20,556 nt of DNA from a virus. Position 1 is the stretch's first letter, and each line of letters opens with the position of its first letter. Of the stretch, positions 1,198 to 20,383 are shown piece by piece. The notes under the pieces were generated by a model, which ran no database searches, had not been told where the DNA came from, and saw nothing but the letters and a program-made list of their open reading frames with translations. Location of the stretch: IMG/VR virus record IMGVR_UViG_3300025151_008939, positions 1-20,556 of that record. One strand, 5' to 3'. The position numbers and the translations under genes are program-made.

Positions 1198-2066
1198 TAA
1201 TTTCTATTTTCCAAATTTGAGATTCTTTTTTCCATATCTATGAATTTTTTTTCTATCATTTTTATACCTTCGTTATACATAGCGTATGGATTTAGTGACT
1301 CGTGAGACAACAGAGGGATTTTTGCAATTGGTGAGAAGTCGAAAGACAGTTCACAGGGAACATTTTCTACTGAAGGCATTCCGTACTTTTTGTTTAAAAT
1401 AATTACCTGTTTTTTTAAGCTAAGCAAACCTTCGGTAACTGTATCCGGTATTGGATACTGTAATTCTATCTGCGTTTTGCCATCAGAAAAGGTGGCTTTT
1501 TTTACGTCTTTTTCTAAGACTGAAGAAGATTCGGCTTCGTCGTATTCTACATCTACTGTAATAAATTCACCGGTATCATTCATTACTTTTACTGGGTTTT
1601 GGGGAGGAGCGATATATTTACCCGGTGAACTTATAGACATTTCAAGAATTTTACCTTTTGGGTCTACTTTTGTTACTGTAAATTCTGTATATTCTCCGGT
1701 TATGTTTCGCCTGTCACTTGAACATATTCCTCCTTGAGAGTAGATCAAATCTCCGGTATTGTATTTAAAATTATTGTCCTGCTTTATGTTGGAATAACTG
1801 TAAGCTTCATGTTCTGAAAAAGTAATTTCTAGAGTGTCTCCAGCTGCAATTTTGTAAGTGAAATCGCCTTTAATAGTTATGACTTTTTTTGCACCTGTAA
1901 AACTTCTTTTTATGTTTATTATTTCTGAGTTTTCTAGTTGGTAGTAGACTTGATTATTACCTATACTCAAAAACGCGCCATTTTTACATACGATTTTTCT
2001 ATTTCCTATTACGTAAAGCCTGTCGGTGTTACTTTTTATTGCAGCCTCAAAAGCTTCAGGTTTCAT
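1194..2066 (-). CDS. Unrecognised 290-aa tail-associated protein, last gene of tail-tip operon
   Basis: I do not recognise a family. The gene starts 9 bases after the J stop and is last in the operon, so a role at the tail tip (fibre base, J partner or chaperone) is inferred from position alone. There is no signal peptide or membrane segment. The N-terminal part (about 15-85) is beta-rich. Residues 102-158 hold a Gly-rich beta module (NTGDLIYSQGG, then NITGEYTEFTVTKVD, then a Gly-Lys-Tyr turn) that resembles short repeats in marine phage fibre proteins. The C-terminus (about 264-288) is a charged heptad-like stretch (IEKKFIDMEKRISNLE), probably a short coiled coil for oligomerisation. The frame stays open for the full length, while a 115-codon plus-strand frame inside it looks like a shadow. 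Its stop overlaps the tape-measure stop head-on. Confidence 0.75.
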   Translation of the reverse strand: MKPEAFEAAIKSNTDRLYVIGNRKIVCKNGAFLSIGNNQVYYQLENSEIINIKRSFTGAKKVITIKGDFTYKIAAGDTLEITFSEHEAYSYSNIKQDNNFKYNTGDLIYSQGGICSSDRRNITGEYTEFTVTKVDPKGKILEMSISSPGKYIAPPQNPVKVMNDTGEFITVDVEYDEAESSSVLEKDVKKATFSDGKTQIELQYPIPDTVTEGLLSLKKQVIILNKKYGMPSVENVPCELSFDFSPIAKIPLLSHESLNPYAMYNEGIKMIEKKFIDMEKRISNLENRNY

Positions 2067-5000: not shown

Positions 5001-7931
5001 ATTCTCGCTGGCGCTAGGTTTTGGGTTTTGTTGTGGATAATTAGAAGTCCAAGTATTTAAATTACTAGTTCCTCCCGCATTGTTGGGTATAGGGAAGTAC
5101 ATTTGCAAGTTTGCTGTCTTGGAAAAGCTGGTTCCAACTTCGTCTACCTCTGTATATTTACCAGTTGAATAAGAAAGGCCTTGAATATTATAGCTTTTAT
5201 TTTCTTCTTCTTTAATGTTAATAATTCTATATGAAGAAAAGCTATTATTTATGAATTTTGGATCGTCTTCAAAAAGTGGCTCTATTGACCAAATTAAATT
5301 TTGTCCAGAGTAATAATTACCCGAGTATGGTACTGCTTGGCTTTCATTTTCTACAGAGTTGTTTGAGTATCCAGTTATAACATAATCCCCGAAATTCAGT
5401 TGGTTGCCCGTGTACGTCCCAACGTTCCCCTTTGCCATCGCCTCCCCATTATAGTTAAAAGTATTCTCGACAGCCATACCGCTATTAAAAAATATCCGAG
5501 TGCAAACCGCTGAGTTTTCATCCCTTAGATTTGACCTGAACGCCCCGGGTCCTCCAGTGATATTTATAACATCAGAACCGTTAAAAGCCAAATTTTGTAC
5601 TTGAGTTCTTCTTACTCCCGGTAATTCATTGCTTGTTTCAATTGTGCCGGAATAATAGTCATAAGTTGGAGCGAGTAATGAAAATTTATATTTCGTATCG
5701 GGATCTAAAGTTATAGCTTGATCAAGTATAATACTGTTTACGTTTTGCCTTTGTGTCGCGTTAAGTGCTGTGTCGTCTGTCGGAGCACCTGCGACAACTG
5801 TTCGTCCTTTAATGACAGAATTTGTTCTACCGCTATGCTTTAACTTATTTCTGAAATTGTCATATATAGTGATTACGTCTCCGGGTCTCAGATAAGCGCC
5901 CTCTAACCCAGCACCAAAAGACACGGTTTCAGTTTCTTGGTACTCGCTGGCCAGAATCCACTTAGCGAATCTTCTCGCCTGACCCCTGCTTGTACAGCCT
6001 AAAGCTGTAGTTTCTATTTCTCTTATACCATATCTTCTTACAGCTTCTTCGTCCTCCAAATATTCCACCGCAGGCTTGTAAGTGTTTCTTTTGTCGTTAT
6101 ACCTTACAATAGCTACGCTATGTCGCGCTTTTTTAGAGGAGCTCGAGTAAGTGAAGTTGGAGTCGATTACGTTAGAGTTGTTAAAATGAAAAACAGGATT
6201 TTTTAATTTATCTTGAGAGGAAAAAATACTTCCATTTGTGTAGTATGAAATACCTCTAAATATAGAGGATAAGTCATTTAAAACTTTAAATGCTTCTTCG
6301 CGGGACCTAATTATGTAATTGATGGTAAACCTCGGTTCAAACCCTCCGTAAGTATCATCTACTAATTCATCGCAGTACTTCGCTATTTCATATAAAGCCC
6401 ACTTGTCTATTTGACCTTCCGTAATGTATTCACCGAGTCCATAACGAGGATTCGTAACTAAATCATAGAAACACCAAGCTGGATTATCAGTCCAAATTAA
6501 TTCTTCAGCAAAATTTCCATCCCATTCTTCATTAGTGTTCTCACTCTTGCGTTGAAAAGTAAAACCATCATCACTTTGGTTTAAGCTAGTACTTGTGTTT
6601 GTTTTATTGCCTAGAGCTACCCCTTTGTAATAATTGCTAGCGGAAGCGGAGCTATCTCCATAACTTTTTATGAACGGGTTGTAGTTGTTAGGAACTTTTA
6701 CCTTAAGTAAGTGTGTATCATATGCCCTAGATGGTATTCTCTGAAACGATCTAGCGTCAAAAATTGAGTAGACCATTGACGAATAAGGATAGGTCAACTT
6801 TGTTCCGTATACTTCTACAATTGAATCGACAAAACTTTGGTTCCTTAAAAACGAAGTTAAGGATTCAGGGGTAGTTCTTACTATTCTAATTTCCCAGCCT
6901 TCGAAACCTACCTTATCCTGAAAGCCTTTATCTGAAAAATCTAAAGTGGTAGCTCTAATATACCCAGAGTCTATTTTACCCTGTACTCTTTCTTTTTTAC
7001 CTAAACGCCAACCTTCTGAAACAAGGTTAGATCTGGTAACGTTTTCAGAGTCTTTACTATCGAATCTGTCGTTAAAAATAGGTTTGTAAAAAATACTATA
7101 TTCAATACTTCTAGCTTTTTGATCCCCGTATCCAGTCGCTGGTACCCCTTTTTTATAAGTTTTAGCTCCAAATTGTAGACTTTCTTGTAGAGCGGTTACT
7201 TTTATGTTTACAATTAGTTTGTTGCATTCTTTGTTTAAAATACGGTAAGTTTTTGCATATTTGTCTATAGGGCCTTTTGGTTTTGCGTATACAGTATTAG
7301 TGGGGGTATCACTTCCCCCTTTTACTTCTGGACCAAAAAGTCTCTCTCCGATACTTCTGTTTATAGACAAGTCCATAATGTCAGAAGTAGGAATAGATCC
7401 TAGTTGGGGCAAGTTCGGATTTATTTTAGGTACGGATCCAGTAGGTTTTCCTACTGAGTAGTCGACGTTTATATCTGCAAAGTTATAGAACCCGTTAGAG
7501 TCTACTAGTGGAACTTCATTCCAATAAATTGACTGTAAGAAACCTAGCTCATTTGTTTCGCCGGCTGTGCCTGTCGCTTTATAGTGATTAAAAACAGCTT
7601 TTTTATATCCGGAGATATTATCATTTCTTACAAAAGAATAATTCCCGCTTGTAATCCCTTCTATTGGCCCTTCAGATAATAAGTCTACTGTTTCGGCGTA
7701 AGATCTAGATACTACATATTCTCCTGCTTCATTTTTTACAGCACTAACGTCAGTAACCGTAGGTCTTGCTTTTGCTTGCTTTTTCTTTTTGTGAAAAATA
7801 CCAAACATGATAGGGGTTCCGTCTGCAGCTGTTGGTTGGTCGAGCCCAACTACCACAAGGTAAAGAACGCACCCCCAAAAAAACCAGTCCGAATTTAGGA
7901 CGTCTATTATTTTTTCTATTTTTTTATTCAT
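2076..7931 (-). CDS. J: Tail tip / host-specificity protein J-like, very large
   Basis: This is the central tail-tip protein, expected to trim the tail end and contact the receptor. The lambda-J-type core is clear. W.DNPAWCFYDLVTNPRYG.G is at about residues 480-503, followed by the INYII..REEAFKVLNDLSSIFRG segment. YGIREIE...G..SRGQARRFAKWIL and L.PGDVITIYD span 634-691. At 1951 aa it is far longer than lambda J (1132 aa). The extra part, from about residue 700, includes a beta-rich fibronectin-III-like stretch (about 1165-1370) and an unrecognised C-terminus that probably carries host specificity. The first ATG is at 7931 and overlaps the I stop by 8 bases. It adds 41 residues with a hydrophobic segment (WFFWGCVLYLVVVGL, 16-30). 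An internal ATG at 7808 (M42, before FGIFHKKKKQ) would give a more typical J start. I kept the long form because of the tight coupling. Confidence 0.92.
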   Translation of the reverse strand: MNKKIEKIIDVLNSDWFFWGCVLYLVVVGLDQPTAADGTPIMFGIFHKKKKQAKARPTVTDVSAVKNEAGEYVVSRSYAETVDLLSEGPIEGITSGNYSFVRNDNISGYKKAVFNHYKATGTAGETNELGFLQSIYWNEVPLVDSNGFYNFADINVDYSVGKPTGSVPKINPNLPQLGSIPTSDIMDLSINRSIGERLFGPEVKGGSDTPTNTVYAKPKGPIDKYAKTYRILNKECNKLIVNIKVTALQESLQFGAKTYKKGVPATGYGDQKARSIEYSIFYKPIFNDRFDSKDSENVTRSNLVSEGWRLGKKERVQGKIDSGYIRATTLDFSDKGFQDKVGFEGWEIRIVRTTPESLTSFLRNQSFVDSIVEVYGTKLTYPYSSMVYSIFDARSFQRIPSRAYDTHLLKVKVPNNYNPFIKSYGDSSASASNYYKGVALGNKTNTSTSLNQSDDGFTFQRKSENTNEEWDGNFAEELIWTDNPAWCFYDLVTNPRYGLGEYITEGQIDKWALYEIAKYCDELVDDTYGGFEPRFTINYIIRSREEAFKVLNDLSSIFRGISYYTNGSIFSSQDKLKNPVFHFNNSNVIDSNFTYSSSSKKARHSVAIVRYNDKRNTYKPAVEYLEDEEAVRRYGIREIETTALGCTSRGQARRFAKWILASEYQETETVSFGAGLEGAYLRPGDVITIYDNFRNKLKHSGRTNSVIKGRTVVAGAPTDDTALNATQRQNVNSIILDQAITLDPDTKYKFSLLAPTYDYYSGTIETSNELPGVRRTQVQNLAFNGSDVINITGGPGAFRSNLRDENSAVCTRIFFNSGMAVENTFNYNGEAMAKGNVGTYTGNQLNFGDYVITGYSNNSVENESQAVPYSGNYYSGQNLIWSIEPLFEDDPKFINNSFSSYRIINIKEEENKSYNIQGLSYSTGKYTEVDEVGTSFSKTANLQMYFPIPNNAGGTSNLNTWTSNYPQQNPKPSASENERNNNILLVQEDKPSINGVIKENYVTLKSEFSVAGFKNNLNIANDDGTVGINYGESRDINKISYSFSIVSTGDPQITNDWAAANDPRIVPVVNTQTQSSKEKSVTYLVSPDYYDSMKENEFALVTSENTQFFNNEKTKIEIESLVGSIPRDNNNNIMPFYIVVYPISEQGIVGYGLLRGITLSEEAQQKLISPVEAYSISSLTTRDENDIPIQTSSAGDTLLYSLDNTEPVFEWTLGSQDPVFNRPEDEESSFGRYELDFTQVQDVQYRLTIREPSSSNIPSNNIYFEFTGYSSDSTIPSFTFNENYNTPAIIDDIAGAGQTYNGDQLNNRQIGKHQIVGQDGKVVKEYFKCDASGFVIQNSPMYPLREFDVVVEVQDSFGRTSSNNTVYSNTIIQGTDPNKNQESYDEKLFNNGYDILGVQIASPSGLFFAQEDSPKGFSPRYLSMEQAATLNYPYKASVRLMPEGKLAFTFEEVQNDKGKVLLSDEEIDKFFNDAQGAVIYYTTGNSSVAIEEDSEGNVLQNNTKFTNLAPHFEIDIAEQANNSYLLLSDKNVENGRASEVTNKTLSNGEVVGSAFDGVVTTEKDGNFIVYRDAFIFGDNDGIDGFEMPFPMILRPEVTNIQLSMAFFDSLSLNKAFNVNDNEAPRMETAVINNETFQIERIFRDTSLNFSTLPKKDVPFTITNVTSTQDTAFLNELGSSFRMGEFNANSAYNTSLGYQAWGEITVGRRDRESKILCFDHAAYGIGTAPEITFEEAVSSTNAFNIIDSNTDTLEASARYYSMQMDAAFGKGNVDFQGISMYAVSKRASYNEGSSAWLRGLGPSVSQGYQTAFSLSQRRIIILNVPLEDELSTISPNKYSVTISTESPVPVDGGINTNLPIPEDTNEMDYLRRVGYAKGNRKGWYSSKPSTAATTDYQVIKEAGQFTVIIRQDANDYFNHDAGRWMKADFGISARLKNGGGLKIKFGVLADME

Positions 7932-8676
7932 TCCAATCTTGAACTCTTATAGGTATTCTAGGGTTAAAGTTGTATTTTAAACCATCTGACGCTGACCCCC
8001 ACGAACTCTTAGGTACAACATCTGCATCTACGTCAATAGTATCACTAGCACTTTGAATAACGTGGCTTCCTATCAGTAGTCTTCCATAACCAACAAAAAC
8101 AGGACCACCTTCTCTTATGGTGTTTTCGGGACCGTTAAATAAATACGACTTTGCGCCGCCTTGTTCTATTTCATTAAAATCGCCAAATTTTGGCATCGGC
8201 GTAAGAAGATTAGTTATGCCTGCGGCAACCAAACCAACACCACCCATTACCAAAGCCCCAGCCATCATACCGCCTTTTCCAGCCATTAAGGCTCCAAAGC
8301 CTCCGGCCATTCCCACACCCGAGGCAATTAAAGCCACACCTATTACAATCGTGATAATGTCATTCGCCCCCTCTAACACTGGTACGATATCTATAGTTTT
8401 TATATTATCGCTTTGTAAAACAAGTTCAGAGGACATGACTCCGTCAAAAGTGTTTGGATCCTTTCCGTCCTCTACATTAAAATCTTTTTCATTTACAAGA
8501 ACCCTATATTTAATATCTTTTTTATCGTTTTCTAATAGAAAATTGTAAAGTTGATGAGTTTTACATTCAACAGCTCTAATTGCTTCTCCTACGCTTTTTA
8601 CCGCTAGGTTCCATTCAGATCTTCCTAGTTGTTCAGCTAAGACTCCGTGAAATTTTATTTTAGATAAACTGCTCAT
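7924..8676 (-). CDS. I: Tail assembly protein I-like
   Basis: This is a lambda I-family tail-tip assembly protein, placed as in lambda between K and J. Residues 1-100 look like the ubiquitin-like N-terminal domain (IKFHGVLAEQLG start and a DIVPVLEGA end). About 108-157 is a long Gly/Ala/Met-rich hydrophobic stretch that could span or insert into a membrane. The C-terminal part has the family pattern SYLFNGPENT (177-186) and VGYGRLLIGS (195-204), which ends at the J boundary. At 250 aa it is close to the usual length. The start overlaps the K gene by 17 bases, and the stop overlaps the J start by 8, suggesting translational coupling. No Shine-Dalgarno sequence precedes the ATG. Family knowledge places I in assembly at the J hub; it is not clearly retained in the virion. 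Confidence 0.9.
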   Translation of the reverse strand: MSSLSKIKFHGVLAEQLGRSEWNLAVKSVGEAIRAVECKTHQLYNFLLENDKKDIKYRVLVNEKDFNVEDGKDPNTFDGVMSSELVLQSDNIKTIDIVPVLEGANDIITIVIGVALIASGVGMAGGFGALMAGKGGMMAGALVMGGVGLVAAGITNLLTPMPKFGDFNEIEQGGAKSYLFNGPENTIREGGPVFVGYGRLLIGSHVIQSASDTIDVDADVVPKSSWGSASDGLKYNFNPRIPIRVQDWNE

Positions 8677-9388
8677 GTCTGTAAATTGTGCTTATTTTAT
8701 TTTTTCTTCTCTCTGAGAGAGCTTCTATTGTGACAAATTTATTGCGTGGCCTGTGGATTATTGTGTTGTTGCCGAGATAAATTCCTACATGATTTGCAGT
8801 CTTGCCCTTTAACATTTCAAATAATAAAATATCATATTTTTTAAATTCTGCTGAAACTGGAATCTTTTTTACGTCCTTGTTAAGCGCCGCTATCTCTTCA
8901 GAGAGGTTTGGTTTTTCTTGATGCCAGTCATCGCTTCTAGAGTAGTCCGAATCTTTTAAGTTTATTCCTATTCTTTTGTAGTATTTTTGCACAAAAGTAT
9001 AACAGTCAGATACTCCTATTTTAAATTCGCTGTAGTCTATAAAAGTTTTGTTTTTTCTAGGGTCATAAAAAGTAAAATTATCATTTTTAACATTATACAT
9101 TATGTAATTTAACAAATGTCCGTTGCTGTTTATTAAGTCGTAAGGAGAAAAAGACTCCTCTCCCTCGGGATGAGAGTGATAGATTGCCTTAATTTGATAT
9201 GATTTTGATATTTTTAAGTAATCTTTCGGAGAAATAGAGAAATGTTTTTTAGGGAATTGAGAAAAATTTTTACATCTTAAAGCTTTATTTTCAGCTCTAT
9301 AATCTACTACAAAGCCACAGCATTCATCTGGATAAGACTCTAAAGCGTGATTTTTGATAATACTTTTTACTGTTTCGCTAAGTTTCAT
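8660..9388 (-). CDS. K: Tail tip protein K-like: JAMM (Mov34) peptidase plus NlpC/P60 domain
   Basis: This is a two-domain lambda K-type protein. The N-terminal JAMM metalloprotease domain (about 1-115) has E22 in DECCGF and the zinc motif YHSHP...SPYD, with H71, H73, S81 and D84 all present. The C-terminal NlpC/P60 domain (about 118-242) has the nucleophile C129 in SDCYTF, H200 in NHVGIYLG and a further polar residue around 208-212 (H212 in IIHRPR). Both active sites look intact. In known phages the NlpC/P60 half is thought to cut peptidoglycan or assist entry, while the JAMM half may process or position tip proteins. The gene starts 4 bases after the L stop, and its end overlaps I by 17 bases. 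The length (242 aa) is normal. Confidence 0.93.
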   Translation of the reverse strand: MKLSETVKSIIKNHALESYPDECCGFVVDYRAENKALRCKNFSQFPKKHFSISPKDYLKISKSYQIKAIYHSHPEGEESFSPYDLINSNGHLLNYIMYNVKNDNFTFYDPRKNKTFIDYSEFKIGVSDCYTFVQKYYKRIGINLKDSDYSRSDDWHQEKPNLSEEIAALNKDVKKIPVSAEFKKYDILLFEMLKGKTANHVGIYLGNNTIIHRPRNKFVTIEALSERRKNKISTIYRHEQFI

Positions 9389-9392
9389 TTGA

Positions 9393-10727
9393 TTAACCCA
9401 TTCCTCTTGATATTGAATTGGCCGCAGGGAATCCTCCGAAAGGAAGGTTTCCTATTGCAATTTCACACCCTCCTTTATTAGTAGATTTTCTATTCCTCCC
9501 TCCCCACCTTAACCTACATCCAGTTAGGCTTTTAGAGCATTCGTCTGCCACCCAGAAATCAGTGTTAGGTGGAGCTATATTTTCCTCACCTCCGAATCCC
9601 ATACTCCTTTTGCACACATAATAATATTTTACTCCCTTTTTTTCTATATAAACATAGTTTCCAGCCCTGTAGCCCATATCTCCTAGGCTTGGGTCATTTG
9701 GATCATTTTTTTGTTTATAGTCCTGTTTATACTCCCCAATGTCGGTAAAATCATAGCCAGTATTGTCTACATTTCTTTGTGACTCCGTAATGATATCATC
9801 GTCTGCATCTGTAGCTACAGGGGGCGCTGCTTTTAACATTCCACACGCGTTTAATTTAGTTGAGCTGCTGGCGGTGTCGCTAATGCTAGGTATTATTCCA
9901 TTATTTTTAAGAGTTTTTAACGATGCTTTTTTAAGTATTGGGATTGGGTTGTTTTCAGAAGTGGTTTCACTCGTATATTGATCTAGTTCAGTTGATGACG
10001 GTGCTTGATACCAGCAGCCTATACCTCTATATTGCCAGACGCACTTATTAGATAAAATCATCCTTTTGGGAAGTTTCGTGCCTTCTAGATCTAAGACTGA
10101 AGATAATTGATATACTAAGTTAATTTTGTTTTCTGTTTGCTTTCTTTCGATATAGTAAACATCATCAGGTAGATAAGCGTATGGGTCAGGCTCATAACCT
10201 TGTGGTAAAAAAGAGCTGTCTCTTCCGATCTTAGACTCTCTTACGGTGCCAAAATTTATTAAATCTAAATACTTAGCAAAGGTCCTTTTTCTTGTAACTT
10301 TTGCCCCTATGATGTCACCTATTTTTCTTATCTCGTATTTTAGTAAAGCAAGTTGATCTGCTCCGGTCTCGCTATTTGATGCAATTGATAGGCTGGGGGT
10401 GGGTAATGCTCCCTTGGTGGTAACCTCAAACCCAGTGGCTTGGATGGGGACGGGCCAGTATTTTTTTCCTTGCCATACGATAAAGGAGTTGAAAATTTTA
10501 GTATTGTTGTGAAACCTTAAAATTCCATCGCTAAAAGTTCCGTTACCTTGAGTTATTCCTTGATCTAATGCATCGGCGTTAAGATTTATATTGTTCTCTC
10601 TGAGTATTTCAGAAATATCTATTTCAAACATCGTTACTAACGCAGAAGGGGTAAGATTCGACAGCTCTGCATTTAAGGATTTTATAGAATTCCTAGCTTG
10701 AGATGGAGTTTGTTGGTAATCTGGCAT
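9393..10727 (-). CDS. L: Tail tip protein L-like with Fe-S-type cysteine set and carbohydrate-binding-like insert
   Basis: This lambda L-family protein sits between M and K as expected. The N-terminal half matches the L core: SALVTMFEIDISEI (about 28-41), ILRFHN, WQGKKYWPVPIQATGFE (85-101), then the IGDIIGAKVTRKRTFAKYLD segment. The C-terminal half carries C229 and C238 (CVWQYRGIGC) and C397 and C404 (CSKSLTGC), matching the four-cysteine pattern that in lambda L holds an iron-sulfur cluster. C295, C372 and C421 are extra. At 444 aa it is about twice lambda L (232 aa). The surplus is a Ser/Thr/Asp-rich linker (about 242-345) and a module at 353-395 (YRAGNYVY...KYYYVCK...IAPPNTDFW) that looks like a small chitin-binding-type fold. 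It starts 2 bases after the M stop, with no Shine-Dalgarno sequence. Confidence 0.9.
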   Translation of the reverse strand: MPDYQQTPSQARNSIKSLNAELSNLTPSALVTMFEIDISEILRENNINLNADALDQGITQGNGTFSDGILRFHNNTKIFNSFIVWQGKKYWPVPIQATGFEVTTKGALPTPSLSIASNSETGADQLALLKYEIRKIGDIIGAKVTRKRTFAKYLDLINFGTVRESKIGRDSSFLPQGYEPDPYAYLPDDVYYIERKQTENKINLVYQLSSVLDLEGTKLPKRMILSNKCVWQYRGIGCWYQAPSSTELDQYTSETTSENNPIPILKKASLKTLKNNGIIPSISDTASSSTKLNACGMLKAAPPVATDADDDIITESQRNVDNTGYDFTDIGEYKQDYKQKNDPNDPSLGDMGYRAGNYVYIEKKGVKYYYVCKRSMGFGGEENIAPPNTDFWVADECSKSLTGCRLRWGGRNRKSTNKGGCEIAIGNLPFGGFPAANSISRGMG

Positions 10728-10729
10728 TT

Positions 10730-11317
10730 TTAGTTATTTGTTTCTATGAAAGTCGCCCTTACCGAATGGTTGCCATGAAAAACAAAATTTGTAGCAAATT
10801 CTTGACAATAAAATCTTTTTTTATAATTACCATCTAAATAAATTGGTGGTAAATGCCTTATCACAAAGCTTTCTGTACCTTTTCTGGCTTTCAAAAAATG
10901 GGTGATGGCTCTAGCTTCTAAGTCTCCTCTCATTTCAAATGATGCGCTAAAATTTATAAAATTATTATGAATTCCGTCTTGAATTCTTTGCTCGTAACCG
11001 TTGCCGAAAACTACAGTATTGACTTTAGGGCGGCTGTTTACAGTTGCATTATATGACGGAACCCATATAAATTCTGGAATTTGTTGAACTCCTTTAATGT
11101 CTGTAGTTCCTGTGTTTTTAGTGAGTCCTCCCCATGAACTCGAGTCAGAAACACTTGTGCCGGCGTCAAGGTCTTTCAAAGCGTAGTAATATTTTATCGC
11201 TTTAGGCGTATTTGTACTGCTGGAAGGAAAATCTTCGTTAACAAAAACTATAGCGTTTTTTACATAGGTATCCGTGTTCCTGTAGGGGGGTACATTGTAT
11301 ATACTATTATTAGCCAT
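10730..11317 (-). CDS. M: Minor tail protein M-like, first gene of tail-tip operon
   Basis: This is a lambda M-family protein, a distal-tail or tip ring component. The family core occupies about residues 82-195: EFIWVPSYN, RPKVNTVVFGNGYEQR (FGNGYEQR at 104-111), FSASFEMRGDLEARAITHFLKARKG, then a beta-rich end. The N-terminal 75 residues are extra relative to lambda M (109 aa). They contain Y-V-K-N-A-I-V-F ... YYYALKDLDAG ... SSSWGGL, a pattern like the small carbohydrate-binding module seen again in L. This gene leads the minus-strand operon. It is the only start in the window with both a near-consensus promoter (11337-11365) and a strong AAGGAG ribosome-binding site a few bases before the ATG. 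Confidence 0.9.
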   Translation of the reverse strand: MANNSIYNVPPYRNTDTYVKNAIVFVNEDFPSSSTNTPKAIKYYYALKDLDAGTSVSDSSSWGGLTKNTGTTDIKGVQQIPEFIWVPSYNATVNSRPKVNTVVFGNGYEQRIQDGIHNNFINFSASFEMRGDLEARAITHFLKARKGTESFVIRHLPPIYLDGNYKKRFYCQEFATNFVFHGNHSVRATFIETNN

Positions 11318-11318
11318 T

Positions 11319-11326
11319 TCTCCTTA
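11319..11326 (-). promoter_or_regulatory. Shine-Dalgarno site of gene M
   Basis: On the minus strand, TTAAGGAG lies just before AAATG. Nearly all other starts in the window lack a comparable site. Confidence 0.6.
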
Positions 11327-11336
11327 ATCCTTTATT

Positions 11337-11365
11337 ATTATAATACACTGAAAAAAGAGTGTAAA
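11337..11365 (-). promoter_or_regulatory. Sigma-70-like promoter for the tail-tip operon
   Basis: Reading the minus strand, TTTACA (11365-11360) is followed by exactly 17 bases and TATAAT (11342-11337). The predicted start is near 11330, giving a leader of about a dozen bases before the M start codon. This is the best host-type promoter in the window. Confidence 0.65.
11344..11363. promoter_or_regulatory. Operator-like dyad inside the divergent promoter region
   Basis: TACACT (11344-11349) and AGTGTA (11358-11363) form a perfect inverted repeat with an 8-base A-rich spacer. It fills the gap between -10 and -35 of the minus promoter and touches the start of the plus-strand transcription unit. 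It could be a regulator site, or the accidental sum of two opposed AGTGTA promoter motifs. Confidence 0.4.
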
Positions 11366-11367
11366 AT
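11358..11367 (+). promoter_or_regulatory. AGTGTAAAAT promoter-like motif upstream of tube-like gene 1
   Basis: A variant of the AGTGTAATAT motif, starting 22 bases before the ATG at 11380. A separate TATAAT at 11339-11344 (part of the palindrome ATTATAAT) could also serve the plus strand, but it has no good -35. Confidence 0.35.
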
Positions 11368-11379
11368 AAAGATAAAGTA

Positions 11380-12258
11380 ATGTTAGGTAGAATTACAAGG
11401 GAAGCTGAAAAGCTCACAATCAATGGTACCGGAATTGAAGGGGTGCAGTCTTTATCGGCTTCTTACAACTCTGTAGCCAAACCCGTGGTAAACTTAGGTA
11501 TAAATCCAGAAAGTTTGGGGTATGGGAACACCGCTTTTCAGTATTACCCTGAGGGTCCTCAGGAAGCGAATTTGCAGTTAAATACGTTAATGACTCATTT
11601 TTTACCGATTCCTGATGATTTTTCTAACTGGTCGTCGAGGGATCCTATGCAAAATTTCACTGGGGCGTTGCCTTTTAGTGGTATAGTTGATCATGGGGAC
11701 AAAAAATTCTATTTTACTGAAGGATATTTAGAGACGTATTCGGCTGCCTGTTCCATTGGGGAAATCCCACAAAGCTCAACAAGCTCAGTAATATATGGAA
11801 ATTTTGGAACTGGAGCTAAATTTGATTCTTGGAGTGAGTATGATGCGGGTGCGACGTATCCCTCGCTCCATGTGGCCAGCTACGGCTCAATGGAGATCAA
11901 TCTAGACACTTTTACCACAAATAGAGTAAACTCTTTTAATGTAAATATAGCTACCCCTCGCCTACCTTTTTACAAAATAGGTTTAGATGAACCAGATGGA
12001 GTCATTGCGGGAACACCAATTGAGGTAAATGTTAACTTTCAAATAGAGCCTGATGATTATGAAATAAAAAATATGCGCCTGAGTCCCGGTGAAACAGTTT
12101 TCAAAAATACAATAATAACTTTGAAAGAAAACAATACTCACAATATATTACTTAGGTACTCTTTTGAAAATATGTTGTTGACCTCAGAATCCTTTAACGG
12201 CACCAGCAGTTCAAATGCGACAATTGATTTTAATCTAAGATCTTTCATTTTAAGGTAA
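11380..12258 (+). CDS. Tail-tube-like structural protein 1 (three-paralogue array)
   Basis: This leads the plus-strand structural operon. It shows no signal peptide or catalytic motif. The protein is beta-rich and looks like two related halves. Half one has a strand pattern ending in FTEGYLETYSAACSIG (GYLETYS at 115-121). Half two has NSFNVNIATPRLPFYKIG (about 184-201), then a long beta stretch. The motif G-Y/F-L-x-S/T-Y-S recurs in the next two genes, at the same residue number in gene 2, and PFYKIG matches PIYKIG there. Duplicated beta-domain proteins of about 300 aa recall trimeric tail-tube proteins such as T5 pb6, so I infer a tube or distal-ring role; no direct family match was made. 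No Shine-Dalgarno sequence precedes the ATG. Confidence 0.72.
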   Translation: MLGRITREAEKLTINGTGIEGVQSLSASYNSVAKPVVNLGINPESLGYGNTAFQYYPEGPQEANLQLNTLMTHFLPIPDDFSNWSSRDPMQNFTGALPFSGIVDHGDKKFYFTEGYLETYSAACSIGEIPQSSTSSVIYGNFGTGAKFDSWSEYDAGATYPSLHVASYGSMEINLDTFTTNRVNSFNVNIATPRLPFYKIGLDEPDGVIAGTPIEVNVNFQIEPDDYEIKNMRLSPGETVFKNTIITLKENNTHNILLRYSFENMLLTSESFNGTSSSNATIDFNLRSFILR

Positions 12259-12262
12259 AAAT

Positions 12263-12272
12263 AGTGTAATAT
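12263..12272 (+). promoter_or_regulatory. AGTGTAATAT promoter-like motif upstream of tube-like gene 2
   Basis: Lies in the 25-base gap between paralogues 1 and 2, starting 21 bases before the ATG at 12284. An AAGG just before the ATG is a weak ribosome-binding site. The same ten bases occur at 20385-20394. Confidence 0.4.
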
Positions 12273-12283
12273 CAAAAAAGGTT

Positions 12284-13195
12284 ATGGCAAGAATATTTTA
12301 CGATAAGGCTCCGGTTGAAATTCAGGTAGGTAACTACAGAGAAACTCTGATAGCGACTGACTGTAGCATAAACTTTAACAACTCTCAGGCTCCTATATAT
12401 TCAGTCGGTAAAAAGGGTCCAATAGGACAATTCCCGTCAGCTGCTCGTGCTGGAGACATTTCGTTTAACTTTTTAACTACCATAACAGGAAATTTTGATG
12501 CAATAGTAGGTGTTGGAACCGCTACACAAGGGAACATAATCAATTATCTAGCCGATCACGTTAAGAACTCAGCAGACTCAGAGGCTAGCGGGGTTGTTGT
12601 AAAATGCGCAGGAGTTAGTGGTATTGGTTTTCTTAATTCGTATAGTTTTAATACTACAGCTAACAGTATTTCTTCTTCTAGCGCAGCATTCACTCTTTTT
12701 GGATCCGGAACAGAACTGCCTGTTAGTGGAAGGTTGAGTGGAATTAGCGCTGGTGTTGGGATAGGGGGTACTGAAGCTAGCACTGTAACAACTGGTATTG
12801 CTCATGGTAGGTTTACAACGATGCCACCCAATTTAAGGACATCAATATACGATGGAACAGCTGCTCCAAAAACGCAAACAGCAACTATTTATAGCGCAGA
12901 TTATTCAATTAGTTTTAACCACACCCCAATTTACAAAATAGGTCAAGAATTTCCAACGACAACATTTTATACAAACGCTTCTGAATCTTTAAACGTTTCT
13001 GAAGACCTTTTCAACTCTGGATTAAAATTTGATGAAAGCTCCACTGACTATACCCTTGAGCTGAAAGGTTTAGCTGGGGCATCTTCAGCACCAATGTACG
13101 TTTTTATTAACGAAGCTAAACAAATTAGCACCTCAGCTAGTGTGGGGTTGGATGATATTATTAGAACTCAAAAGTCTTTAACGGCTGTTTATTAA
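12284..13195 (+). CDS. Tail-tube-like structural protein 2 (three-paralogue array)
   Basis: This is the middle paralogue of the array and shows the internal duplication best. DCSINFNNSQAPIYSVGKKGP (about 26-46) in half one mirrors ADYSISFNHTPIYKIGQEFP (205-224) in half two. AGDISFNFLTTITGNF (56-71) aligns with GGTFSFNYYLTGVDYF in paralogue 3. GFLNSYSFN (115-123) is the shared motif of all three. A Gly/Ser-rich loop (about 139-175) lies between the halves. The product is probably a ring-forming tail component. Which of the three is the major tube subunit cannot be told from sequence; this one has the clearest tube-like pattern and its own possible promoter and weak ribosome-binding site. The stop lies one base before the GTG of the next gene. 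Confidence 0.75.
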   Translation: MARIFYDKAPVEIQVGNYRETLIATDCSINFNNSQAPIYSVGKKGPIGQFPSAARAGDISFNFLTTITGNFDAIVGVGTATQGNIINYLADHVKNSADSEASGVVVKCAGVSGIGFLNSYSFNTTANSISSSSAAFTLFGSGTELPVSGRLSGISAGVGIGGTEASTVTTGIAHGRFTTMPPNLRTSIYDGTAAPKTQTATIYSADYSISFNHTPIYKIGQEFPTTTFYTNASESLNVSEDLFNSGLKFDESSTDYTLELKGLAGASSAPMYVFINEAKQISTSASVGLDDIIRTQKSLTAVY

Positions 13196-13196
13196 T

Positions 13197-14081
13197 GTGT
13201 TTTATACTGCAAATAATTCAAAAATACAGATTAACGGAAATGAAATTTTAGCTTCCGACGCACAAATATCTTTACAGGCAAACCTGCAGCCGAGTTATAC
13301 TATCCAACAACGTCATACAGAGTCCTTTACCCCGTCTAATGGCATAGGAGGCACCTTTTCTTTTAATTACTATTTAACAGGAGTAGATTATTTTAAGTCT
13401 TTTATTACGGGGCAGGGAGAAATGCCTCTTAAAAACAGTCAGGTTATATCTGGTAACTTTGGTGGACTAAATTTTGATAGTGGCTACTTAACATCTTACT
13501 CTGTTAATTTTGCAGCTAATGCTCCAGCCGTAGCAAATGCTAGTATATCTTTTTTTGATCAACTAAACGGAGAGTTTACTCCTACATCTGAATCTGCTCC
13601 GGAAGATAAAGAAATATTAAACTTTAAAAATGCCATTGTTTCTCATTACATACCGATAACTAATGAGCCATTATCGGGTTCGGTAGAAGAGTTTGTTGCT
13701 GGGACATATAATTATCAGTGTGATGTTCAGCCAGTTTATTTAATGAATGAGACTAAGCCAAGTTCAGTTAGCTTTGGGCCTAAAACAGTTAACATGAATT
13801 TTGAAACAGATAATCCAACGGGTTATCTTCCAGTGTCTGGGAACACGGCAAGACTATCAGTAGACTTAAAAAACAATAATGACCAAGTAGTTGAAAACTT
13901 TACTTGCTCTGGGGTTTTAAAAGAAAGGGGGCTGGCTTCAGCCGTCGGTGACTACATAAAACAAACTATCACAGTAACAGAAGCGGCTACTCAGGATACT
14001 TTCATATACGTTGCTTCCATGCTAAACGCACAGGGCCAACAAAACGCAGTAGGAGCAGGGACAACTTCACCACTTTACTAA
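13197..14081 (+). CDS. Tail-tube-like structural protein 3 (three-paralogue array), GTG start
   Basis: This is the third paralogue. ISLQANLQPSYTIQQRHTES (about 24-43) and GGTFSFNYYLTGVDYFKSFI (51-70) align with paralogue 2 residues 28-74. GYLTSYSVNFAANAPA (96-111) matches GFLNSYSFNTTANS there. The second half (about 165-294) has YNYQCDVQPVYLMNETKP, which lines up with the second-half repeats of paralogues 1 and 2. The start is a GTG one base after the preceding TAA. An overlapping ATG at 13195 is in another frame and soon stops, so GTG with termination-reinitiation is the best reading. The C-terminal 50 residues are Ala/Thr/Gln-rich. It is probably a tail ring or tube variant. Confidence 0.72.
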   Translation: MFYTANNSKIQINGNEILASDAQISLQANLQPSYTIQQRHTESFTPSNGIGGTFSFNYYLTGVDYFKSFITGQGEMPLKNSQVISGNFGGLNFDSGYLTSYSVNFAANAPAVANASISFFDQLNGEFTPTSESAPEDKEILNFKNAIVSHYIPITNEPLSGSVEEFVAGTYNYQCDVQPVYLMNETKPSSVSFGPKTVNMNFETDNPTGYLPVSGNTARLSVDLKNNNDQVVENFTCSGVLKERGLASAVGDYIKQTITVTEAATQDTFIYVASMLNAQGQQNAVGAGTTSPLY

Positions 14082-14082
14082 C

Positions 14083-17000
14083 ATGCCAGTATTTAATCCT
14101 AAAAAATTATTTCAGCTAAGCGGCCAGAACTTAAATTTTGCCGAAGGAGTTTTTTTTGGTGAAGATCAAGTAGAGGAAATTTTTTACCTGTCTAACACTG
14201 GAATTTCTGGAGAGGTTCCTGCCGCCGCTATGACTAGCGAAATTTTTATTGAAGCTAATGGGGGTAGATTGAGTTTAGGGAGTCCGTATATTGTGTTAGA
14301 CTCTGATAGTCAATTATCGGTTAGTGGATTAAAGCCTCAGTATGTGAGTGGGGTTGTGGGAGACATTATTCAGATATCGGGAGATAATTTTTACAAAGTT
14401 ACTGACGTTAATTTTGGGGGCAGTATGGGGGGTCAGTCTAGTGAATTTTCAGTTTTATCTGAAAATGTTATAGAAGCGGTTGTTCCCACAGGAGCAACTT
14501 ATCATGAAATTTCTGTATTCTCTTCTTTGAGAACTGGGGTGGCGGGAAGTACGTCTTTGGCTAGCGGGAAAACATACAACAAGTTTATTCCAGTCCCCGA
14601 TGTTACTGGTATAAACTCGGGTCAAATGTTGGGAGGCGAAACTTTGGTAGTGGGCGGTATAGGTTTTTCTGGAGTAACAGGAATATCAATAAACGATATA
14701 ATTTTTAATGATTTTAAATCCTTAGATGCGACGGGTGTTCAGGCTACAGTTCCATCAGGTTTGCAAGTTGGGGACTTGTATAAAAACACCAGAGGTCAAA
14801 TTGATTTAGGTTTAACAAGTGGACAGTCTTTTAAAGTTTCTGATGAATTTTCATTTAGCCCTCTCGCTAAAATAGCTGGAGTGTCTACAAATGCGTTTAT
14901 TGGATCTTTGTTAACAATAAGTGGAGAAAATTTTAATTCTGGAGTTTTTCATACTGGTGAATTCGATGGCAGCTTAGGTACCGGGTGTTTAGTTTCGATA
15001 GGTGGCCAAACAGGTAATTTTAAAATAATTAATGATGCTGGTGGTTACAATAGAATGCAGGGGCATTTACCCAGTGGAATTAACCTTGGGATTTCAGGGG
15101 GTAACGTTGCGGTTGGTAAAACTAATATCAATACTTTACCCATCAGTTTATTTAGTGATAATTACCCAGAAGTTTATCCTAATGATATTAGAGTTAGGCC
15201 GGGTATAGGTAGTCCCGAGGTTTACTCAGTGAGTCCCGAGTCTGGGGTTGGTGGAGATACGGTGCTTATTAGTGGGGCTAACCTTTATGGAATCACTGGT
15301 ATTAATTATAGGGGCGGAAACGTTGGTGTAGGTACGGAATTTGAGCAATCTAAAATAGTTGAAGTTACGCCGGGGCAAACTTTAATGAGTACTATCCCGG
15401 ACACTGCTAATTTTGGCAATAATGGAGGATTTTTAGATTTAGATGTCTCTGGGTTTTTTGGTAATGTGGGAGTAACTAGCGCTTTCTTTGTTTACGGGGT
15501 TCCAGTGATTAACACGATTACCCCCGGTGGTTCAGGTATAGAACCGGGTGCGCCTGCCGTAATTCAGGGCCAAAGACTTTATTCTGGGTCTGAGTTAGAG
15601 TTTTATGGTGGAAATGGAACTTTAGCTAGAAGCAATTTTAGGCAAAATTTAAATATCAGTGGTTACTCTTTAAACCATACGCAAATAAATTTTAATTACC
15701 CTAATAATTTTGAAACAGGAAATTCTTATGGTATAAGAGTGGTCAACCAGAGAGCGGGAACACAGCTTTATAGGGTTACTGGTTTTAATGAACCTGTTTT
15801 AAGTGGCGTAAATAGGGTAAGTGGAGTTCAGGGGGAGAGGGTTATTGTCTCGGGGTATTTTGAAAGAATAAAACCCTCTGGCTTAAGACTTGGTGAAAAA
15901 ATAATATTAGACTATGAGGAGGTTGGTTTCGCTTCTAACCCGCACCAGTTTAGCGGTATTGTTTTTGATATACCAAAAAATACTAGCAGTAATTTAATAA
16001 CTATTGATACTAGTGGGGGTTTTATTTCAACTACTGGGGTATTAAATGTAACTCCGGCAAAACCAGAAATTAGCGGTTTTTATCAAGACTTAACAGGTCA
16101 AAGACCTGATTATTATAATTCTTCTGAGCAGGCTTTTATATCTAACAATATGGTAAGGGTGACTGGAGAGAGGTTAAATTTAGTGACTGGAATTAACTTT
16201 TCTGGAATAAATAATGGAGATCCATTAGTACAAATAAATTCATTTTCTCAGGTCTCGCCTTTTAATCTCACATTTCGCTTACCCACAGGAATAAATCCTA
16301 ATAGCGGAAGTTTTGTGTTAAAGGACTTTGTAAACAGGGAGGTCGTGTCCCCGTTTCCTTTAAATATGGTGGTTTATTCTGGTTATTCACCTAGCTTTCC
16401 TGTGCCTAACGAGATAATAAATTTAAGTGGTGCAAACGTTACGGGTTTGGATTTAGTTTTTAGTGGCCTCGATGGAAATCCGGTAAGCCCGGAAATAGTT
16501 ACTAGTGCTGTTTCTGGTGGAGTTGATGTATTGTCTGTAAAGACTCCAACAGGCATAAGAAACTCTAACGTGCTGGTTACTGGGAGGAGTAATAGTAACT
16601 TGGGAGAACTATTTGACTTTAGGCCTTGTCCTGTAATTACAGGAGTTAGCGGTCAAAGTGCCAGTAATGTAATAACTACCGGACAATTGTTTTATATTAC
16701 CGGTTTAAATGTTGATCCTTCCGTGGCTTTTTCCGGAGGAAATATTTTTATTTCAGGCACAGGTAATAAAAATTCTCAAATGCAGCAATCTGCGTTTGCT
16801 ATAGAAAAAACTACAACTGGTGACGACTTAGGGGTGTTCTATACAAAATTTGACGTTAGGGCCAGTAATGATTTTATTGGAACTGGACGTTTTTTGTTTC
16901 CAGATGTAGGGGAGGCCGCCAAGCAGGCTCAGTTTTACGGCACTGAATATGTTATAAACGGAACTAGAGTCAATATTACTGGCTATGGGCCGATTAGGGG

Positions 17001-17448
17001 GGTTACTGGTGACGCTATAGAATTTACTGGGTTTGGTTTGAATGAAGTAACCGAGGTTTATTTCTCCCCCTTCAACGCGTCTCAGGTTAATGTAGACAGT
17101 TTTAATATATCTCCTCTAGTATCGGCTGAATTTGTTAATAACTCAAATAATAAAATTACTGTTACGGTCCCTGCTGATCTTGTAGAGGCTAAAGGTAAAA
17201 CTAATGTGCTGTTTTCTGGCGGTACTAATGAGATAGTTAGTGGTTTTGAAGTTATATTAGATGCGTCAGTTGTTGAGTACAATATAGTAGAAGAAAATGA
17301 TGTACCGACTAGCGCGTCGAGAGTCGGTAATTTTACTCAAAAAGAAACTGTAAATGGAACAGTGTTTGTGGTAACTAGGACAAGGTTCCCGGATGGAACA
17401 ACTGCTATCGTTAGTAGCACGCCTTTTGTTGGGATGGGTACTACTTAA
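14083..17448 (+). CDS. Large IPT/TIG-like Ig-repeat structural protein (fibre or tail surface)
   Basis: This 1121-aa protein is made of about nine Ig-like repeats of the IPT/TIG type. Each has the pattern P.I..V....G..V.ISG.N....VTGI.F.G, then a strand ending in a VP/TP.G turn. Clear central motifs are at about residues 101 (DNFYKVTDVNFGG), 193 (IGFSGVTGISIND), 399 (ANLYGITGINYRGG), 696 (ERLNLVTGINFSG), 782 (GANVTGLDLVFSG) and 984 (FGLNEVTEVYFSP). Others near 280, 490 and 570 are more diverged. There is no signal peptide, membrane anchor or enzyme motif. The last 60 residues are not an Ig repeat and may be a tip or attachment domain. The ATG follows the previous stop by one base, so it is part of the tube-like operon. 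The role is inferred: tail decoration or fibre, possibly binding cell-surface sugars. It converges with the accessory cassette. Confidence 0.82.
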   Translation: MPVFNPKKLFQLSGQNLNFAEGVFFGEDQVEEIFYLSNTGISGEVPAAAMTSEIFIEANGGRLSLGSPYIVLDSDSQLSVSGLKPQYVSGVVGDIIQISGDNFYKVTDVNFGGSMGGQSSEFSVLSENVIEAVVPTGATYHEISVFSSLRTGVAGSTSLASGKTYNKFIPVPDVTGINSGQMLGGETLVVGGIGFSGVTGISINDIIFNDFKSLDATGVQATVPSGLQVGDLYKNTRGQIDLGLTSGQSFKVSDEFSFSPLAKIAGVSTNAFIGSLLTISGENFNSGVFHTGEFDGSLGTGCLVSIGGQTGNFKIINDAGGYNRMQGHLPSGINLGISGGNVAVGKTNINTLPISLFSDNYPEVYPNDIRVRPGIGSPEVYSVSPESGVGGDTVLISGANLYGITGINYRGGNVGVGTEFEQSKIVEVTPGQTLMSTIPDTANFGNNGGFLDLDVSGFFGNVGVTSAFFVYGVPVINTITPGGSGIEPGAPAVIQGQRLYSGSELEFYGGNGTLARSNFRQNLNISGYSLNHTQINFNYPNNFETGNSYGIRVVNQRAGTQLYRVTGFNEPVLSGVNRVSGVQGERVIVSGYFERIKPSGLRLGEKIILDYEEVGFASNPHQFSGIVFDIPKNTSSNLITIDTSGGFISTTGVLNVTPAKPEISGFYQDLTGQRPDYYNSSEQAFISNNMVRVTGERLNLVTGINFSGINNGDPLVQINSFSQVSPFNLTFRLPTGINPNSGSFVLKDFVNREVVSPFPLNMVVYSGYSPSFPVPNEIINLSGANVTGLDLVFSGLDGNPVSPEIVTSAVSGGVDVLSVKTPTGIRNSNVLVTGRSNSNLGELFDFRPCPVITGVSGQSASNVITTGQLFYITGLNVDPSVAFSGGNIFISGTGNKNSQMQQSAFAIEKTTTGDDLGVFYTKFDVRASNDFIGTGRFLFPDVGEAAKQAQFYGTEYVINGTRVNITGYGPIRGVTGDAIEFTGFGLNEVTEVYFSPFNASQVNVDSFNISPLVSAEFVNNSNNKITVTVPADLVEAKGKTNVLFSGGTNEIVSGFEVILDASVVEYNIVEENDVPTSASRVGNFTQKETVNGTVFVVTRTRFPDGTTAIVSSTPFVGMGTT

Positions 17449-18077
17449 TCGTTTATCCAGTCACAATTAAATGCTATAGATACCCTGAGCTCTTCTTTAG
17501 GATTTGGGTCTACATAGTGCATTAACCAAGATGGGAAAATAATAACTTTTCCCTCGCGAACAGGGTACGTAAATAGACTACTGTCGTATTTACTGTCAAG
17601 AAGGTATGGGTTTTGATGACCATACTCATCGCCTATATCTGGCGCACAAATTCTGTGTTGAGGGCGTGGGTCTAAGAAATGTACATTACCTGAGTTGTCT
17701 GGAAATTTTACATAATAGCAGCCTGAATAGTGGTGATTGGGATGTATGTGAGGTGGATTAAAATTGCCCTTAATGTTTACGTTCATCCATTGTTCAAATT
17801 TTCCCCAATGACCTTTTGCCCAAGGCCTTCCTTGGGAAATTTTTTGGAACATTTTTTTTATTTGAATTTCTATAAAAGAATTAAGCTCTATATCGTCTTC
17901 ATACCAAAGTTCATCTCCTCCATAAGTTTCTAAAGAGGGGTCTTTGGAACAGCCGTCTGTTCCGTATTTGTTTATTATTTCATCTACTTGCCTGACGGCT
18001 TGTTTATGATATGGAAAATCAAATTCCCACAACTCGGTTACAAATAAATCATGCTGTGTGTAGGGTTCGTTTTTCAT
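17445..18077 (-). CDS. 2OG-Fe(II) oxygenase, cassette-distal copy
   Basis: This is a putative 2-oxoglutarate/iron-dependent dioxygenase of the type seen in marine phages and bacteria. Such enzymes use 2-oxoglutarate and O2 to hydroxylate a protein, nucleic acid or small molecule; the substrate here is unknown. Visible features: WMNVNIKGNFNPPHIHPN (97-114, with H110 and H112 as candidate metal ligands), SGCYYVKFP, FLDPRPQ, VREGKVIIFPSWLMHYV (H187, distal ligand) and R198 in LRVSIAFN, which would bind 2-oxoglutarate. The length (210 aa) is normal. The start overlaps the upstream DUF2384 gene by ATGA, and the stop overlaps the Ig-repeat gene head-on. It differs from the oxygenase at 19218-19847 in motif layout, so this is not a recent duplication. 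Confidence 0.88.
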   Translation of the reverse strand: MKNEPYTQHDLFVTELWEFDFPYHKQAVRQVDEIINKYGTDGCSKDPSLETYGGDELWYEDDIELNSFIEIQIKKMFQKISQGRPWAKGHWGKFEQWMNVNIKGNFNPPHIHPNHHYSGCYYVKFPDNSGNVHFLDPRPQHRICAPDIGDEYGHQNPYLLDSKYDSSLFTYPVREGKVIIFPSWLMHYVDPNPKEELRVSIAFNCDWIND

Positions 18078-19217: not shown

Positions 19218-19847
19218 TTATAGCGATTTAAGCTGGTAGTGCCAAGCGGCCATGGTGAGGCCAACTCTAGGGTTTTCTGGGGTTGCTCCTGAGGTTATAT
19301 CTGTTACTAAATGTGGCCGTGTGGGGTCGAAAACAACAAGTCTATTATATCTAAAAGGTATAGTGAGCCAATTGTTGTTGTTAGGGTCACTGCACTTGCC
19401 CTCTTCTTCAATTAACTCATATTGGTTTTTGCAGGTTAGATCTTTTTCTGTATTGACTAAGTTTAGTTTTAAGTCTCCACCTTCTATTTTATTTTGCGGG
19501 TCTAGATATAAAACTGATGTATACATTGGATGTACAATCTTACCGCTTTTTCTTTCCTCGTATTCGTCAACATCAACATGCAAGCCTAGTGTGGTTTCTG
19601 TCGACATTGTATTATCCCAAACTTCAAATCCTAAAATTTTACTGCAATCAAATTTTAATTTTTTATTCCAAGTATAGTTAATGATATCTAAAATACACTG
19701 ATTATCTTTATGCTTTTGGTTTGGTAACTCATCTTTTTTGATAAAAAAAGAGCTAAAGTTACCTGACTTTATAAACCCTGAAGCTTTTTTGGCTAAATCA
19801 GGGTCTAAAAAGTCATCCAAAACCAGACAAAAATTTTCTAGATTCAT
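19218..19847 (-). CDS. 2OG-Fe(II) oxygenase, prolyl-4-hydroxylase-like
   Basis: A 2-oxoglutarate/iron-dependent dioxygenase with a complete facial triad: H90-V-D92 in GLHVDVDEYE, distal H179 in FDPTRPHLV, and R194 in PRVGLTMAAWHY to bind 2-oxoglutarate. SVLYLDP...GGDLKL (111-128) is the typical core strand. The N-terminus (VLDDFLDPDLAKKA) matches the opening helix of prolyl-hydroxylase-like proteins. At 209 aa it is full-length. The substrate is unknown; phage relatives are suspected to hydroxylate virion proteins, host proteins or nucleobases. Its ATG overlaps the pyrophosphatase stop (ATGA), so the two are translationally coupled. It is only distantly like the oxygenase at the other end of the cassette. 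Confidence 0.9.
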   Translation of the reverse strand: MNLENFCLVLDDFLDPDLAKKASGFIKSGNFSSFFIKKDELPNQKHKDNQCILDIINYTWNKKLKFDCSKILGFEVWDNTMSTETTLGLHVDVDEYEERKSGKIVHPMYTSVLYLDPQNKIEGGDLKLNLVNTEKDLTCKNQYELIEEEGKCSDPNNNNWLTIPFRYNRLVVFDPTRPHLVTDITSGATPENPRVGLTMAAWHYQLKSL

Positions 19848-20383
19848 ACCTTAGCTTGTCTTTCTTGCCACCTATTGTGAGCATCTATAACAACCGTGCT
19901 GGCTTTTTTTCCATTTTTCCATTCGCCCACTTTTACAGAACTGGTTCTATCAATTTTATAGATTCTGAAAAACTGTTTGTAAATTTTGAGATGTTCCTCT
20001 TCTATAGAGGACAAGCGTGGATAACGGCTTTTTGGGGACCAGTGCGGGACAGCTATTACTTTATAGTCTATTTCGTCGTTATCTACAAAATCTAGAACAC
20101 CTAAAACCCTACATTGCACTAAACTGCCTCTGTCTATGGGGTCGTGATTAAAAATCAAAACGTCTAGTGGGTCATTGTCTAAAGCAAAGGTTTGAGTTAT
20201 GAACCCATAATTAACCGGATATTGTAAAGAAGAAACTAAACATCTTTCTAATTCAAAAATGTTATATTCTTCATTATACTCGTATTTAGTATTAGTTCCT
20301 TTAGGGATTTCGACGATACAGCTTATGTGGTCAAAACCATCTTTTGTAATTGGAATGTCGTTTACTAGATTTCTCTGTGTCAT
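19844..20383 (-). CDS. ppa: Inorganic pyrophosphatase (family I, soluble)
   Basis: Hydrolyses pyrophosphate to two phosphates and so pulls DNA, RNA and other nucleotide-releasing syntheses forward; it is cytosolic. At 179 aa it is the usual bacterial length. By comparison with E. coli PPase every expected active-site residue is present: E25, K33, E35 (VEIPKGTNTKYEY), R47, Y55 and Y59 (YPVNYGF), D69, D71 and D74 in the signature DNDPLD, D101, D106 and K108 (DNDEIDYKVIAVP), and Y142-K143. It should therefore be active. It leads the minus-strand accessory cassette. A 17-base gap separates its start from a divergent plus-strand gene, and there is no Shine-Dalgarno sequence, so a leaderless transcript is possible. 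A pyrophosphatase inside a phage late region is unusual to my knowledge. Its origin, presumably a bacterial host, cannot be told from this sequence. Confidence 0.95.
   Translation of the reverse strand: MTQRNLVNDIPITKDGFDHISCIVEIPKGTNTKYEYNEEYNIFELERCLVSSLQYPVNYGFITQTFALDNDPLDVLIFNHDPIDRGSLVQCRVLGVLDFVDNDEIDYKVIAVPHWSPKSRYPRLSSIEEEHLKIYKQFFRIYKIDRTSSVKVGEWKNGKKASTVVIDAHNRWQERQAKV

Follow-up and report, generated by a model that had tools for sequence, protein, structure and literature searches.

Three consecutive genes of an uncultivated virus, here called P1, P2 and P3, probably encode minor tail-tube proteins of a large siphovirus, which would form three pseudo-hexameric rings of the T5 p140 type between the tube and a lambda-type tip, with the third ring probably anchoring an appendage. 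We put the chance that this reading is correct at about two in three. The size, the fold and the gene position of the three proteins are all as expected for p140-like rings. The DNA that was analysed (the window) is a 20.6-kb IMG/VR virus record, a fragment that starts inside the tape-measure gene (TMP). It carries a lambda-type tip module on the minus strand, consisting of gpM, gpL, gpK and gpI homologues in order and a large protein in the place of gpJ, from which P1, P2, P3 and a fourth gene, P4, run divergently on the plus strand. The features of the window are the following:

7 to 1197, plus strand: 3' end of TMP, cut by the window edge (phrog_3547, E 1e-9; position as that of the 2183-aa TMP of the relative G001)
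1194 to 2066, minus strand: ORF of no named family
2076 to 7931, minus strand: 1951-aa protein in the lambda gpJ-type central tip/fibre place (by position only, the order J-I-K-L-M being kept in relatives)
7924 to 8676, minus strand: gpI-type tail assembly protein (phrog_32, 8.5e-41)
8660 to 9388, minus strand: gpK-type JAB and NlpC/P60 protein (Pfam NLPC_P60 and Prok-JAB, phrog_30)
9393 to 10727, minus strand: gpL-type minor tail protein (Pfam Phage_tail_L, 4e-37; phrog_18)
10730 to 11317, minus strand: gpM-type minor tail protein (Pfam Phage_min_tail, 2e-16; phrog_14)
11318 to 11379, no strand: divergent intergenic region of 62 bp with the inverted pair AGTGTA(A/T)(A/T)AT, putative divergent promoter of gpM and P1
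11380 to 12258, plus strand: P1, 292 aa, proposed tip ring 1 (AlphaFold2 model, PDB matches, tube-family profile E 7e-12)
12263 to 12272, plus strand: motif AGTGTAATAT, 21 nt before P2, putative promoter for P2-P3-P4
12284 to 13195, plus strand: P2, 303 aa, proposed tip ring 2 (AlphaFold2 model, PDB matches, similarity between its halves)
13197 to 14081, plus strand: P3, 294 aa, GTG start, paralogue of P2, proposed appendage-bearing tip ring 3 (profile match to P2)
14083 to 17448, plus strand: P4, 1121 aa, at least 8 TIG/Ig-like repeats, probable tail appendage (strand motif; Pfam TIG_SUH in orthologues)

After the tail genes, the minus strand carries two 2OG-Fe(II) oxygenase-like genes and an inorganic pyrophosphatase gene (17445-18077, 19218-19847 and 19844-20383); the second oxygenase-like gene scored just under the Pfam cut-off.

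The order P1-P2-P3-P4 beside M-L-K-I-J was kept in about 70 loci, wherever the locus was long enough to judge, and the 62-bp gap between gpM and P1 was almost invariant in about 30 relatives. P1 and P2 each seem to have a putative promoter of their own, with P3 and P4 following P2, because sites of the type AGTGTAA(A/T)AT lie upstream of the ORF starts. In G001, every one of the eight exact copies of this motif precedes an ORF start by 12-22 nt (TMP, P1, P2 and a portal-like gene among them), where about 2.5 sites would be expected in shuffled sequence.

Paralogy and internal duplication of P1, P2 and P3

The initial annotation, made from the letters of the window, had described the three genes as tandem paralogous tail proteins, each internally duplicated, on the basis of a few shared motifs, and all of these motifs were found in place. 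The element G[YF]Lx[ST]YS occurs at residue 115 in both P1 and P2 and at residue 96 in P3. The pattern of the second halves is present as PFYKIG at residue 196 of P1 and as PIYKIG at residue 215 of P2 (which has PIYSVG at 37), and in a weaker version, PVYLMN, at residue 179 of P3. The GD/G-x-SFN segment ascribed to the second and third gene reads GDISFN in P2 and GGTFSFN in P3, and the mirrored halves of P2 can be recognised in the pair SINFN at 28 and SISFN at 208. In the family alignments the G-Y/F-L-x-S-Y-S element lies in the strand pair close to the end of the first tube domain, with counterparts in the second domain, e.g. LTSESF in P1 and LDSESF in the family of separately encoded tube proteins discussed below (the tube family).

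When single sequences were compared, the similarity between P2 and P3 and that between the two halves of P2 were significant (0 of 500 shuffles as good in both cases), that of P1 to P2 and of P1 to P3 was marginal (13 and 30 of 500 shuffles, respectively), and the half-against-half comparisons of P1 and of P3 were not significant. The marginal values would fit a resemblance by chance or composition among beta-rich, Ser/Gly-rich tail proteins. Such an explanation is hardly credible, as it is contradicted by family profiles with negative controls, by shuffled and reversed controls and by independent structural matches. Relatives were collected from IMG/VR (67 distinct loci for P1 in the first scan), and family alignments were built for P1, P2, P3 and the tube family. 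Profile-profile comparison connected P2 with P3 (E 1.2e-15), P1 with P3 (E 8.2e-8) and P1 with P2 (E 2.5e-6, a match that was weak with the first, shallower alignments), whereas the control comparisons with gpM, gpL, gpK, gpI and the TIG protein P4 all gave E > 0.05. Judged by their family profiles, P1, P2 and P3 are true, distant paralogues, in line with the initial annotation.

The internal duplication is, by the same type of comparison, real at the family level, because the pooled N halves of the four families matched the pooled C halves with a score of 40.8 across 115 aligned columns, far higher than the scores of 100 column shuffles (8.6 on average, 12.5 at most) or of the reversed profile (12.0). 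Across families, N halves matched N halves and C halves matched C halves. Several links between an N and a C half scored above all 40 shuffles (P1N-tubeC, P1C-P2N, tubeN-tubeC and P2N-P2C), and the comparisons P1N-P1C and P3N-P3C did not. The claim that each gene is duplicated was thus upheld for the pooled families and for P2 by itself; the halves of P1 and those of P3 had no detectable match with each other, and in P3 a duplication would follow from its homology to P1 and P2.

Predicted fold and known counterparts

The AlphaFold2 models of P1 (pLDDT 76, pTM 0.73) and P2 (pLDDT 67.6, pTM 0.69) both consist of two beta domains, which are predicted to be tandem tube-type beta-sandwich domains. 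Structural searches of both models were done with Foldseek and VIA-align. Full-length matches included T5 pb6, the DT57C tube, the P74-26 tube, the major tail protein of SH-Ab15497 and tail-tip chains of T5 and DT57C (293-298 residues), with Z 15.4-17.9 and rmsd 4.7-7.0 A for the best seven matches of P1 and Z 13.6-15.9 and rmsd 4.5-6.8 A for the matches of P2. The entries 9iny, 5ngj, 8ed0 and 8xan aligned almost end to end with both models. Single-domain tube proteins (Hcp, GTA, lambda V and R4C) aligned with one half at a time, some with the first and some with the second. The likeness to T5 pb6 that had been suggested for the duplicated domains was therefore recovered, with pb6 among the best solved matches and superposed over the full length of P1 and P2, and lambda V superposed on single halves. 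Models of moderate confidence (pLDDT 68 and 76) that align at rmsd 4-7 A indicate the fold, not the role. For P3, a two-domain tube fold would follow from homology to P2 only; the P3 orthologue in locus L144 matched Pfam Phage_tube_2 (E 3.5e-5). In BFVD, P1 was matched along its length by numerous tail and major tail proteins of phages that are of similar size, so that duplicated tube proteins are in themselves common.

The best PDB match of P1 was a T5 tip chain (7qg9_G), and the p140 ring of the T5 tip appears to be a closer known counterpart of P1-P3 than pb6. The tip chains of 293-298 residues are almost certainly T5 p140 (chain G of 7qg9 and chain A of 9ioz) and DT57C TTMP (chain L of 8hqz), assigned by their length and the published content of the entries, the titles of which name no chain. 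In T5, the last pb6 ring is followed by a p140 trimer and then by the Dit hexamer. Related to pb6 but free of decoration, p140 is surrounded by a collar that anchors the side fibres (PMC10038345). The counterpart of p140 in DT57C is TTMP (PMC10713586). Like p140 and TTMP, the proteins described here have about 290-300 aa and are encoded among tip genes, and the models of P1 and P2 have a TTP-like two-domain tube fold with neither a decoration domain nor an added Ig domain. The arrangement differs from that of T5 in that a single p140 ring adjoins a T5-type tip there, whereas three tandem paralogues lie by a lambda-type M-L-K-I-J module here. The neighbouring module resembles the lambda tail tip by family matches of gpM, gpL, gpK and gpI and, for gpJ, by position. 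The lambda tube protein gpV is a single-domain protein, and we know of no p140-like ring in lambda. The whole-tube formers pb6, P74-26 and SH-Ab15497 share with P1 and P2 the duplicated tube domain and the full-length structural match (Z 14.7-17.9 for the best-scoring matches) and differ in that the probable major tube gene is here a separate paralogue in relatives (423 and 476 aa in G001). In T4, gp54 and gp48 likewise form additional TTP-like rings, which lie between the baseplate and the tube (PMC10038345); these are likened to P1-P3 by description and, unlike them, are single-domain, hexameric rings of a contractile phage.

No detectable sequence similarity was found between P1-P3 and p140 or TTMP, and the P1, P2 and P3 family profiles gave unrelated matches only, and no tail protein, among the PDB chain sequences. 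This does not exclude common descent with p140, since the identity between the T5 paralogues pb6 and p140 is no higher than 9% (PMC10038345). Searches of Pfam and PHROGs with P1-P3 yielded nothing useful, Pfam leaving all three unnamed and PHROGs giving a weak match of P2 to phrog_985 ('virion structural protein', E 1.7e-4). A tblastn search of 50,697 phage records with P1, P2, P3, two members of the tube family and a capsid-like protein gave no match, so that no relative among annotated phages was found, and in bacterial genomes matches were limited to three contigs of one uncultured bin.

Separate tube genes in relatives

The usual place of a major tube gene is between the neck genes and the chaperone genes/TMP. 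In the 170-kb relative G001, which was read from end to end (P1 and P2 80% and 87% identical to those of the window, respectively), this place is occupied by two tandem tube paralogues of 476 and 423 aa (13428-16151), and P1-P3 lie on the tip side, by gpM. The neck, chaperone and portal genes of the relatives were named from position and size, not from family matches. The 144-kb relative G002 has the same arrangement with one tube copy, and a tandem pair was found in nine relatives (G001, G004, G007, G008, G009, G015, G017, G019 and G023). The tube family (genes of the ORF8/ORF9 type) was present in 22 of the 25 contigs tested, at one to five places in each; its alignment matched P1 with a profile E of 7e-12, and by profile comparison P1 is closer to this family than to P2. 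Another tube-type paralogue (474-478 aa; 478 aa in G001) is located directly behind the portal-like gene, far from the tail genes, in G001 (135941-137377) and G002 (113612-115036), and possibly forms a ring at the head end.

P1-P3 are probably not the main tube, since in larger relatives the gene for the major tube protein, present once or twice, lies apart from them, by the tape-measure gene; the window is a fragment, and the separate gene was seen in these relatives. Of the two interpretations offered initially, several distinct ring types is for this reason favoured and a tube of mixed subunits disfavoured. In such a mixed tube P1, P2 and P3 would all be major subunits, alternating or in zones along the whole tail, in line with the tube fold of the P1 and P2 models, with the closeness of P1 to the major-tube family and with the tandem pairs in G001 and several relatives, which point to a lineage that duplicates its tube genes. 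We regard it as quite unlikely, because the relatives have a separate and longer tube protein at the canonical site, ahead of the chaperone-like genes and TMP, P1-P3 are grouped with the tip genes on the opposite side of TMP, and some relatives appear to manage with fewer of these genes. For instance, only one gene, of the P3 type, adjoins gpM in G012 and G014, which gave no match to P1 or P2 in the stretch read or in a search of the whole record, and in G021 the tube gene was the only such gene in the stretch read.

One of P1-P3 could also be the true major tube protein, in which case the ORF8/ORF9 family would be something else. P1 is the candidate, being close to that family and adjoining TMP in G018 and G022, where a P1-type gene lies between TMP and a gpM-like gene. 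Yet the ORF8/ORF9-type genes occur in nearly all contigs tested, between neck-like and chaperone-like genes, whereas P1 and P3 were absent or highly diverged in some of them, which makes this possibility very unlikely.

P4, probable tail appendages and the proposed rings

P4 contains a TIG-like strand motif in 8 copies, against 0.4 expected. The P4 of the window had no Pfam TIG match; among its orthologues, the one in L070 matched Pfam TIG_SUH with 26.2 bits (cut-off 24) and others stayed below the cut-off. In two distant relatives (L222 and L225; 6680-10819), P3 and the TIG protein form one ORF of 1380 aa. Because P4 is encoded directly after P3 and belongs to the same polypeptide in these distant relatives, P3 is probably a ring that carries P4 as a side appendage. 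Five P3 orthologues (in L144, L029, L063, L065 and L068) have some 130 additional residues inserted in the second half, perhaps a domain of the carbohydrate-binding type. Furthermore, a 3918-aa ORF of G017 (2116-13872, locus L277) opens with a two-domain tube-type unit, which suggests a giant fibre anchored through a tube ring.

The fusion, the inserted segment and the giant ORF would equally suit tube domains that had taken on a new use outside the DNA channel, surrounding the tail as a collar or as an adaptor for fibres, like the p132 ring of T5. This is an unlikely reading given the complete two-domain tube fold, with full-length matches to channel-forming proteins, and given that P1 and P2 have no added domains. 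We propose instead that P1-P3 are p140-like tip rings, a reading also favoured by the P1-type gene between TMP and the gpM-like gene in G018 and G022 and by the P3-type gene next to gpM in G012 and G014. The duplicated tube domain would allow three copies of P1 (or of P2, or of P3) to close into one pseudo-hexameric ring, and three consecutive trimer rings, one of each protein, would be stacked between tube and tip. There they would prolong the DNA channel and fit the tube to the tip, a role that p140 has in T5, and the P3 ring would bear the TIG appendage P4 on the outside. The number of rings is uncertain, as other tip proteins may contain tube domains.

G001 has six paralogues in all: three at the tip, the tandem pair of major tube genes and the gene that follows the portal-like gene. 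A tentative extension is that a single duplicated tube domain gave rise in this lineage to a set of rings distinguished by position and that the tail is a segmented tube, in which successive ring types would mark the head end, the shaft and the tip and would carry different appendages.

Neither the tube fold nor a TTP-like ring at the tip is in itself new. In the open-access literature and in phage records we found no description of three tandem tip-ring paralogues, of their combination with a lambda-type tip, of their gain and loss within a lineage or of the fusion to a TIG chain. The findings supply annotations for proteins that are unnamed in Pfam and have at most a weak 'virion structural protein' match in PHROGs. 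They also connect p140-like proteins to an uncultivated lineage with a lambda-type tip, in which none to three of them were seen per branch and, in some relatives, one forms a single polypeptide with a repeat filament. The lineage would thereby offer a natural series in which to study the origin of additional tail rings and the attachment of side appendages to a siphophage tail.
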